NCBI RefSeq assembly: GCF_017916275.1
Contig: NZ_JAFMST010000003.1
Coordinates: forward strand, 62,001 to 126,000
Direction: 5' to 3'
DNA from: Rubellimicrobium arenae
GTDB lineage: Bacteria > Pseudomonadota > Alphaproteobacteria > Rhodobacterales > Rhodobacteraceae
DNA length: 64,000 nucleotides
Made by a program: the position numbers and the translations under genes. This document shows positions 21,601 to 33,308 of the stretch, piece after piece (position 1 is the stretch's first letter; each line of letters begins with the position of its first letter). The notes under the pieces are model-generated. The model was not told where the DNA came from, did not search any database, and was given only the letters and a program-made list of their open reading frames with translations.

Positions 21601-21675
21601 TGGAGCGGGCGATGAGATTCGAACTCACGACCCTAACCTTGGCAAGGTTATGCTCTACCCCTGAGCTACGCCCGC
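21601..21675 (-). tRNA. tRNA-Gly (GCC)
   Basis: Read on the minus strand it forms a full cloverleaf: acceptor GCGGGCG pairs with CGCCCGC, D arm AGCTCAGGGGTAGAGC, anticodon loop TTGCCAA (anticodon GCC) on a five-pair stem, TPsiC loop GTTCGAATC, discriminator T and encoded CCA. Total 75 nt. It is identical to a second copy at 21819-21893. Confidence 0.97.
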
Positions 21676-21818: not shown

Positions 21819-21893
21819 TGGAGCGGGCGATGAGATTCGAACTCACGACCCTAACCTTGGCAAGGTTATGCTCTACCCCTGAGCTACGCCCGC
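21819..21893 (-). tRNA. tRNA-Gly (GCC), second identical copy
   Basis: Identical in all 75 positions to the copy at 21601-21675, with anticodon GCC and encoded CCA. The identity continues a little beyond the gene on both sides (GGAAAC/GGAAAT before, CGCCCGCTCCGTG after), which marks a recent tandem duplication with a period of 218 bp. On the minus strand this copy comes first, so both may be on one transcript. Confidence 0.97.
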
Positions 21894-32550: not shown

Positions 32551-32590
32551 AAAAAAAGGGCGGCAGCCCAGGGAGGAGAAAGGGCGCCGC
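32551..32590 (-). terminator. Rho-independent terminator formed by the last CUCCUCC hairpin of the sRNA array
   Basis: On the minus strand GCGGC-GCCC (32590-32582) pairs with GGGC-A-GCCGC (32569-32560), with one bulge, around a loop containing CTCCTCCC. After two Cs follows a run of seven Ts (32557-32551). It is thus an intrinsic terminator and an sRNA anti-Shine-Dalgarno hairpin at once. Confidence 0.85.
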
Positions 32591-32927
32591 CACTTCGGTA
32601 GGGGCGGCCCAGGGAGGAGGAGAGGGCAGCCGTTCCGATCATGTTGCGGCGGGACCAGGGAGGAGGAAAGGTCCCGCCGCGTTTCCGCGAGACGCCCAGG
32701 GAGGAGGAGAGGGCGCCAGCGAACTCGTCAAACCCGTGCGGCGGAGCCGGGAGGAGGTGGCCCCGCCGCGAGACACCGGCACCCAGGGAGGAGGAGAGGG
32801 CACCAGCGTAACCTGTGCGGCGGGACCAGGGAGGAGGAGGGGTCCCGCCGCGTCCTGCGCGGGGCGCCCCGGGGCGTTGGGGCGCGTCCGCGAAGGTGAT
32901 CCGACCCCAAGAGGAGGAAGGGTCGGA
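32560..32927 (-). ncRNA. CcsR/'cuckoo'-like sRNA array: eight hairpins with CUCCUCC loops
   Basis: Eight consecutive stem-loops downstream of the DUF1127 gene each display CCTCCTC or CTCCTCC(C) on the minus strand. Stems (plus coordinates): H1 32900-32907/32920-32927; H2 32817-32827/32841-32851; H3 32778-32784/32798-32804; H4 32738-32748/32759-32769; H5 32691-32697/32711-32717; H6 32646-32656/32670-32680; H7 32603-32610/32624-32631; H8 32560-32569/32582-32590. H2, H4 and H6 share an 11-bp GCGGCGG-type stem and H3, H5 and H7 a shorter GGGC stem, which gives a repeat of about 85 nt. A/C mismatches in H3, H4 and H5 become G-U pairs only in minus-strand RNA. In R. sphaeroides such RNAs (CcsR1-4) are processed from a transcript with ccaF1 and act in oxidative stress. 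Borders of individual sRNAs here are not determined. Confidence 0.88.
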
Positions 32928-32938
32928 CCGAAATTCTC

Positions 32939-33166
32939 TTAGGCCCGGTCGGCCGCCTGCCGGGCGATGTTCCGGATGTCGCAGCGGCCCATGCCCAGGT
33001 CGCTCAGCTCGCGGTCGCTGAGGAGCGAAAGCTCGTTCAGCGTCTCACGGTAAAGGCGGTACCGAGCCACGCGATCGGCCATCTGCGCGCGCAGACCCGC
33101 GAACCGGTGGGCCAGCGTCACGCCCGAAACCGCGTTGTGGATGTCGTTTGCGAAGGCCATCGTCAT
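32939..33166 (-). CDS. DUF1127 small protein, CcaF1-like
   Basis: 75 aa basic protein. The C-terminal half (YRETLNELSLLSDRELSDLG, then MGRCDIRNIARQAA) is the DUF1127 (YjiS-like) domain, rich in Arg and amphipathic. It ends 11 bases before the first CUCCUCC hairpin. In R. sphaeroides the DUF1127 protein CcaF1, encoded directly upstream of CcsR sRNAs, binds RNA and influences sRNA maturation; gene order and size here fit an orthologue (inference). ATG 33166 has AAGAGA upstream; a second ATG is two codons later. Confidence 0.88.
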   Translation of the reverse strand: MTMAFANDIHNAVSGVTLAHRFAGLRAQMADRVARYRLYRETLNELSLLSDRELSDLGMGRCDIRNIARQAADRA

Positions 33167-33283
33167 GTCTCTTTCTTCAGTCGATCCGCAGGCCACCGGG
33201 CCGTGCATCCGCGCCGTTAGCGCTGTCACGAGCAGAAATAACCCTTTGCTGCGCCTGCACAATGTCGGAAAGTCGCAATGCTG

Positions 33284-33308
33284 CTATGCAGCAACTGCAT
33301 AAGCAAGG
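33284..33308 (-). promoter_or_regulatory. Candidate RpoH-like promoter of the DUF1127/sRNA transcript
   Basis: On the minus strand CCTTGC (33308-33303) and GCATAG (33289-33284) are separated by 13 nt, a loose match to heat-shock sigma (CTTG...CATA-like) promoters. The homologous R. sphaeroides transcript is RpoH-dependent. A start near 33277 would leave a leader of about 110 nt. The match is not strong; a TTGTGC...TATTTC sigma-70-like pair nearer the gene is an alternative. Confidence 0.3.

Follow-up and report, generated by a model that had tools for sequence, protein, structure and literature searches.

Work on R. sphaeroides describes co-transcription of CcaF1, a DUF1127 protein, with the small RNAs CcsR1-4 from an RpoHI/RpoHII promoter (PMC10253847, PMC8307010, PMC7866481). 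The common CcaF1-CcsR precursor is cleaved by RNase E, and the CcsR RNAs have a role in oxidative stress and target the flhR mRNA (PMC10253847, PMC8307010, PMC7866481, PMC8625941). RS0680a of the same species is reported with two stem-loops, each bearing an anti-Shine-Dalgarno (anti-SD) motif (PMC3927594). In Sinorhizobium and relatives, the CCUCCUCCC-loop sRNA NfeR1 (alpha-r14; ar14, RF02344) is activated by the LysR-type regulator LsrB via a TGCA-N6-GCAT box, and its CCUCCUCCC motifs silence ntrB by pairing at the translation start (PMC10746234). The VtlR regulator controls DUF1127 genes and abcR sRNAs (PMC12595884, PMC7486931), and its motif as reported in Brucella is CAATGCAGCCATGCA (PMC12595884). 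LsrB was called unique to Rhizobiales in a statement of 2025 (PMC11975290). A limited search of the literature found neither a VtlR-CcsR link nor the promoter box described below, and an earlier description may exist.

Judged from its sequence, the locus of Rubellimicrobium arenae is of a known kind, namely a CcaF1-CcsR (CIN1) locus of the Rhodobacterales. The window, i.e. the whole 64-kb stretch of DNA that was analysed, is part of a 4.5-Mb draft genome (label G000, contig label C33). A DUF1127 gene lies upstream of several hairpins with CCUCCUCC-type loops on the same strand, the first of which starts after a gap of 9 nt from the stop codon, and the series ends in a terminator, as identified by reading. 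The first-pass annotation had proposed a CcaF1/CcsR-type locus, and this was borne out by the Pfam match of the encoded protein and by matches of the array to the Rfam CcsR1 and ar14 models, which were below the gathering scores with E-values down to 2e-12. The start codon of the DUF1127 gene was picked via alignment with relatives, and NCBIfam returned no family for the R. arenae protein.

On the plus strand, a gene which we take from reading the ORFs to be of the Mrp type diverges from the DUF1127 gene and is followed by a presumed mraZ, and genes presumably of the BenE and LysE types are located downstream of the array. Among loci L009-L068 (60 loci from 55 genomes, R. arenae included), 52 had an Mrp-type frame, and in loci L021, L030 and L039 the flank had a MraZ-type frame in its place. 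At gathering thresholds, Rfam identified only two tRNAs in the window; the two genes are on the minus strand (21604-21675 and 21822-21893), 218 nt apart and with equal Rfam score.

Between 32929 and 32554 of the minus strand, eight hairpins with CCTCCTC or CTCCTCC loops were identified, which confirms the eight anti-SD-type loops annotated earlier 3′ of the DUF1127 gene. Across 500 dinucleotide shuffles of the 390-nt array stretch, the number of motif hairpins averaged 0.17 and did not exceed 2; the folding z-score of the stretch was -8.5 (100 shuffles). By the same rule, the rest of the window on both strands held 14 motif hairpins, with no more than two per 200 nt. The loops were 13 nt long in five hairpins, 11 nt in H8 and 10 nt in H1 and H4; CTCCTCC was present in the loops of H2-H8, and H1 had CCTCCTC only. 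H8 leads into a T7 run, identified by reading at 32551-32557. A simple terminator scan returned no match, its loop limit of 8 being shorter than the loop of H8, and neither did a sigma-70 promoter scan. Within unit 1, a GC-rich hairpin lacking the motif makes this unit longer. The interval first annotated (32551-33166) leaves out the promoter, which is located at about 33235-33300.

Table 1. Features of the R. arenae locus in 5′ to 3′ order of the minus strand; positions are those of the window.
Feature	Position	Strand	Remarks
LysR-type box ATGCAGTTGCTGCATAGCAGCATTG	33276-33300	minus	Core TGCATAGCAGCATTG at 33276-33290; perfect match to TGCATRGCNGCATTG
Second conserved promoter element ATTGTGCAGGCGCAGCA	33247-33263	minus	Overlaps presumed -35 (TTG); 12 nt after box
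Presumed -10 GGTTATTTC	33235-33243	minus	Placed by position relative to conserved block
DUF1127 gene, CcaF1-like	32939-33166	minus	ORF, 75 aa; PF06568, E 8.7e-12
H1 hairpin, first of unit 1	32898-32929	minus	Loop TCCTCCTCTT; without Rfam match of its own
Non-motif hairpin GCGCCCC/GGGGCGC	32864-32885	minus	In unit 1, H1-H2 gap; read from sequence
H2 hairpin, second of unit 1	32817-32851	minus	Stem GCGGCGGGACC; CcsR1 match 32818-32854, model positions 41-77, 34.4 bits, E 1.6e-6
H3 hairpin, first of unit 2	32773-32809	minus	In CcsR1 match 32733-32812, 20.2 bits, E 0.026
H4 hairpin, second of unit 2	32738-32769	minus	Loop ACCTCCTCCC; in CcsR1 match 32733-32812
H5 hairpin, first of unit 3	32691-32717	minus	In CcsR1 match 32641-32726, 54.3 bits, E 2.1e-12
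H6 hairpin, second of unit 3	32646-32680	minus	Stem as in H2; in CcsR1 match 32641-32726
H7 hairpin, first of unit 4	32603-32631	minus	In CcsR1 match 32555-32640, 25.8 bits, E 5.7e-4
H8 hairpin and T7, second of unit 4	32551-32596	minus	Loop TTCTCCTCCCT; reads as transcription terminator

The near-identical H2, H4 and H6 stems, the register of the Rfam matches and a comparison with further arrays lead us to read the array as four CcsR-type units of two hairpins each, not as eight independent RNAs. The 11-bp stems of H2 and H6 are identical, and that of H4 differs from them by one pair-keeping double change (A-U to G-C) and one change from G-C to G-U. The first-pass annotation had placed H2, H4 and H6 in one stem class and H3, H5 and H7 in another. 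The former class stands, and in the latter H3 and H5 are alike at 14 of 20 arm positions, whereas H7 is less like these two (11 and 12 of 20) and, by this measure, closest to H8 (14 of 20). Repeats are spaced at intervals of 79 to 87 nt, or 171 nt over two steps, which fits a unit of about 85 nt; together with the H2/H4/H6 stems, these spacings support the suggested growth of the array by tandem duplication of such a unit, which is here refined to a hairpin pair. In the R. arenae array by itself, the alternation of even and odd stems was not significant (permutation p 0.14). Over the collection of 104 arrays described below, stem similarity was higher at lags 2, 4 and 6 (9.3, 8.9 and 10.4 of 20 positions) than at lags 1, 3 and 5 (7.1, 8.0 and 7.8). 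Among arrays of at least five hairpins, two-hairpin parity had the right sign in 70 of 92, and p<0.05 was reached singly in just 18 of 92.

In a relaxed search, the best match of the CcsR1 model (RF02791), that of H5 and H6, extended over the full 83 positions and scored below the gathering score of 65.3 bits; the weaker matches are given in Table 1. The register of these matches pairs H5 with H6, H7 with H8 and H3 with H4, aligns H2 to the model's second hairpin and leaves H1 unmatched, in accordance with four two-hairpin units. The ar14 model (RF02344) returned two matches of 43.5 and 39.5 bits, below its gathering score of 58.8 bits. By these matches, the array is a clear relative below the curated cut-off. 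Since no match reaches the gathering score, we assign it to the locus type and do not claim that it belongs to RF02791 proper. In Rhodobacter amnigenus (95.7 bits) and in a Rhodobacteraceae MAG (99.7 bits), the CcsR1 gathering score was passed by the first unit of the array (loci L089 and L099, respectively), and the promoter block was present in both.

With CcaF1-CcsR1-4 of R. sphaeroides the locus shares a short DUF1127 gene, four two-hairpin CCUCCUCC-loop units and a 3′ terminator on the same strand, a likeness judged from published descriptions and the Rfam model. It differs in its stems, its sub-gathering scores with RF02791, the extra hairpin of unit 1 and the weaker -10. Hairpins with CCUCCUCCC loops and a promoter box of LsrB-type LysR proteins are features in common with NfeR1; R. 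arenae differs from this system, in which three hairpins are found in one sRNA and for which the passages of the source drawn on here mention no DUF1127 gene (PMC10746234). In the Cuckoo RNA family (Reinkensmeier and Giegerich 2015), conserved CCUCCUCCC loops are combined with variable stems (PMC3927594, PMC10746234), and the R. arenae array, which may belong to this family, has loops of the CCUCCUCCC kind on arms that vary with pairing kept. The VtlR/LsrB regulon of Brucella, Agrobacterium and Sinorhizobium resembles the locus by a similar box 5′ of a DUF1127 gene, and the R. arenae genome encodes a LysR from the group of its regulator. The reported targets of that regulon are sRNAs or small-protein genes (PMC12595884, PMC7486931), whereas in R. 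arenae a DUF1127 gene and an array are combined.

Arrays of at least three motif hairpins were found in 28 of the 30 best-matching DUF1127 loci (one per genome, R. arenae included), and the remaining two had just a 2-hairpin group upstream of the gene. Named loci were searched with four close DUF1127 proteins, as an alignment of 16 was too divergent to scan with, and 59 of these 80 loci had at least three hairpins 3′ of the DUF1127 gene. Among the 21 loci without array, three were at a contig end, six with Rhodobacterales names had none to two hairpins in reach, and 12 were titled Microvirga, Lichenibacterium, Lichenifustis, Rhodoblastus, Hyphomicrobiales bin or unplaced alphaproteobacterial bin. 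In total, 104 arrays were collected, defined by at least three hairpins and by differences in the first 80 nt, with split groups counted separately. The commonest size was eight hairpins (29 of the 104 arrays) and the largest 24; the array size in R. arenae is not unusual, being equalled or exceeded in many relatives. The largest array, with 24 motif hairpins 3′ of the DUF1127 gene, is that of Alexandriicola marinus (L072), and in a Cypionkella bin (L127) the motif hairpins 3′ of the DUF1127 gene fall into two groups, one of 9 and one of 6. Of the 292 genomes that represent the order, 159 contained a strict three-loop pattern, a count without usable control; the reversed triple-loop pattern was rejected as control since CCTCCTCC contains the motif in both readings.

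Upstream of the DUF1127 genes, a conserved block was identified in 94 regions, consisting of TATGCATTTGCTGCATAGCAGCATTG, a spacer of 11-12 nt (84 of 94), ATTGTGCANNYGCAGCA and then the -10 region. These 94 omit 10 of the 104 arrays, for which the DUF1127 frame was uncaught by the strict expression; a similar expression missed real DUF1127 frames, and some of the 10 may have the gene and some not. The TTG was conserved and a CCYAT-type -10 was found in 43 of 91 relatives; the R. arenae -10 is a weak match to the pattern of the family. At most one mismatch to TGCATRGCNGCATTG was observed in 72 of the 94 regions, against always at least four for the reversed pattern and at least three for the other strand. 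As both TGCATRGCNGCATTG and the composite pattern below were generalised from the same data, the count for the exact published VtlR motif is given alongside: up to three mismatches were found in 76 of 94 regions, versus a mean of 0.2 and a maximum of 4 for 200 shuffled motifs. The R. arenae core differs from TGCATGGCTGCATTG, the reverse complement of the VtlR motif, at 2 of 15 positions, and the commonest box forms of these regions at 1-2 of 15.

Within the R. arenae genome, TGCATRGCNGCATTG had two perfect matches, both 5′ of DUF1127 genes (the window site and one on contig C37), and additionally three sites with one mismatch and 61 with two; the reversed control gave seven at up to two mismatches. 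The second R. arenae DUF1127 gene (C37:316341-316692; loci L150 and L185) has the same promoter block and is without hairpin array, and the third (C1:130911) has a degenerate block with three mismatches (L186, at about 1280). The composite GCATRGCNGCNTTG-N11-15-TTGTGCA was present, mostly once, in 174 of 292 genomes (reversed control 0 of 292). It was absent in its perfect form from 118, including the one other genome of the same genus (L012), where the block is visible but diverged. A perfect box was found once each in seven of 15 further, hand-chosen relatives: six precede a DUF1127 gene with array, and the seventh a frame without array that resembles DUF1127 at a Pfam score under the cut-off (E 7e-4).

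In 30 loci from the first listed of the 174 genomes, a DUF1127 frame followed 26 of 31 composite sites. A motif hairpin was located within 1.7 kb 3′ of all 31 sites, and at least two hairpins at 30 of these. At the remaining five sites (four loci), no DUF1127 frame was found in the stretch from box to hairpins, and three of the four genomes had a DUF1127 match elsewhere. On the minus strand of locus L224, at 1501, the box is followed by just two motif hairpins and one further hairpin that has a T run, an arrangement resembling a stand-alone sRNA gene of CcsR/NfeR1 type. Locus L226 (minus strand, 972 and 1501) carries two tandem copies of the box with four hairpins, with no DUF1127 frame and no match in the genome.

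In S. meliloti (CP090106.1), the LysR gene beside trxB was taken as LsrB from this adjacency, following the trxB-vtlR order described in PMC7486931. Its product had one outstanding match in R. arenae, at C34:36837-37691 (39% identity, 238 bits), and the next LysR match was far weaker (128 bits). The DNA-binding parts (residues 3-62) were identical at 44 of 60 positions (73%). Upon back-search, the R. arenae LysR returned the same trxB-adjacent LysR as its best place in CP090106.1. The corresponding place in R. leguminosarum was a gene with the annotation VtlR, which again adjoins trxB. In a tree of 16 LysR proteins it was placed with LsrB, VtlR and relatives of Azospirillum, Tistrella and Methylobacterium (support 94/96, just under the strong-support mark of the tool), apart from five other R. 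arenae LysRs and two outside LysRs. Among the matches listed, NCBIfam assigned neither LysR a family above cut-off. The trxB adjacency itself failed as a route to the ortholog in R. arenae, where trxB and the LysR gene are separate and the trxB neighbours are other genes, presumably of Lrp and sulfate adenylyltransferase types, as named by reading.

Two traits of the VtlR/LsrB regulon were identified in R. arenae, i.e. the VtlR box with two mismatches in the promoter and a putative ortholog in the genome, and a VtlR-type LysR homolog (E ≤1e-80) was found exactly once in each of 292 genomes. The presence of this group in all 292, as assigned by similarity, disagrees with the published view of LsrB as confined to Rhizobiales (PMC11975290). 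If this view is followed, the box might be bound by some other LysR-type protein or represent another promoter feature, with VtlR/LsrB uninvolved. Such a reading would also be in line with the RpoHI/RpoHII promoter reported for the R. sphaeroides operon (PMC10253847) and with the 27 LysR-like matches in the R. arenae genome. We consider it doubtful, since the box is near the published VtlR motif, the candidate regulator occurs once per genome, and its DNA-binding part is much closer to S. meliloti LsrB than the protein overall.

The sequence analysis itself shows the anatomy of the locus, its repeat unit and likely strand, the matches to known families, the conserved promoter and the presence of the regulator. 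By analogy to R. sphaeroides and Sinorhizobium, from which transcription, processing, regulator binding and mRNA targets are extrapolated, the locus is probably a stress-induced CIN1-type operon, whose precursor would be cut into anti-SD sRNAs. Stress, acting via RpoH and the LysR regulator, would raise one transcript that encodes the DUF1127 protein and carries four two-hairpin sRNAs in its 3′UTR. The promoter would combine an RpoH-like core with the LysR box, most likely bound by a regulator of the VtlR/LsrB family. RNase E, with the CcaF1-like protein, would then cut the transcript between the units to release the four sRNAs, whose CUCCUCC loops would be held single-stranded by stems that drift in sequence with pairing kept. 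These loops would base-pair with the purine-rich Shine-Dalgarno regions of a number of mRNAs, whose translation would decrease. A point against this reading is that DUF1127 proteins may act by protein contacts and not by RNA (PMC12501420). Sponge and anti-SD functions are likewise assigned by analogy, and GGAGG-type sites are probably so frequent that they would not tell sRNA targets from other mRNAs.

It is unlikely that the hairpins serve mainly as a protein-binding platform, titrating or feeding back on the DUF1127 protein or RNase E, with mRNA pairing secondary. The position of the DUF1127 gene directly 5′ of the array in most loci examined would fit such a platform, yet the DUF1127-free promoter sites (5 of 31) indicate that a co-encoded partner is unneeded there, and the anti-SD core is contained in the motif loop. 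CcaF1 is reported to bind RNA and to affect CcsR maturation from its own transcript (PMC10253847, PMC8307010), which favours a platform; the loops of NfeR1, on the other hand, work by base pairing (PMC10746234).

Much less probable still is that the array serves only to stabilise or terminate the DUF1127 mRNA at its 3′ end and has no trans role. A terminator hairpin ends the array, and TTTT follows the last motif hairpin in 80 of the 104 arrays, but for this purpose a single hairpin would suffice. Moreover, DUF1127-free arrays exist, the loop is kept where stems vary (an argument that is partly circular, the motif being also the search key), and the CcsR RNAs of R. sphaeroides are separate species from one co-transcript (PMC7866481).

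The anti-SD sRNA reading places the functional RNA on the DUF1127 strand. For 643 exact loops inside arrays, with arms taken at fixed offsets from the loops, 82% of the arm cells were standard pairs, versus 49-54% in re-partnered arms, depending on loop type. The G-T cells exceeded the A-C cells by 455 to 103, whereas the re-partnered arms had about 13% and 9%, respectively, and this excess beyond the baseline favours the DUF1127 strand as RNA; since the arrays were selected for hairpins, the pairing excess is partly built in, as the G-T/A-C ratio perhaps is too. A window-only count (12 G-T to 0 A-C) was discarded as biased, because the stem finder allowed G-T and not A-C. Although GGA loops are a recognition pattern of CsrA and a 160-codon plus-strand frame spans the array, a plus-strand RNA with GGAGGAGG loops acting as a CsrA/RsmA-like sponge is highly improbable in view of this G-T excess and of the T-run, promoter block and DUF1127 gene, which all indicate the minus strand.

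The locus itself is one more CIN1 array, ordinary for its family, and interest centres on the shared promoter and regulator and on promoter-bearing arrays without a protein gene. In the sources cited, two literatures are kept apart, that on Rhodobacter CcaF1/CcsR with its RpoHI/RpoHII promoter and that on rhizobial and Brucella VtlR-LsrB with its DUF1127 genes and anti-SD sRNAs, and the promoter joins them. This link allows a direct and cheap test in a laboratory phototroph, and the arrays, which share one kind of promoter and range in size from 3 to 24 hairpins, provide a ready series for relating unit number to dose. The resemblance of the box to the site of a regulator of rhizobia and their relatives is a hint that this control circuit may be of wider occurrence in alphaproteobacteria. 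On balance, we lean towards the view that VtlR/LsrB control of anti-SD sRNA arrays, with or without DUF1127, would be shared across Alphaproteobacteria and not confined to Rhizobiales, and that in Rhodobacterales it would be the main input to CcsR arrays, overlapping an RpoH-type promoter, with the dose adjusted as two-hairpin units are gained or lost.
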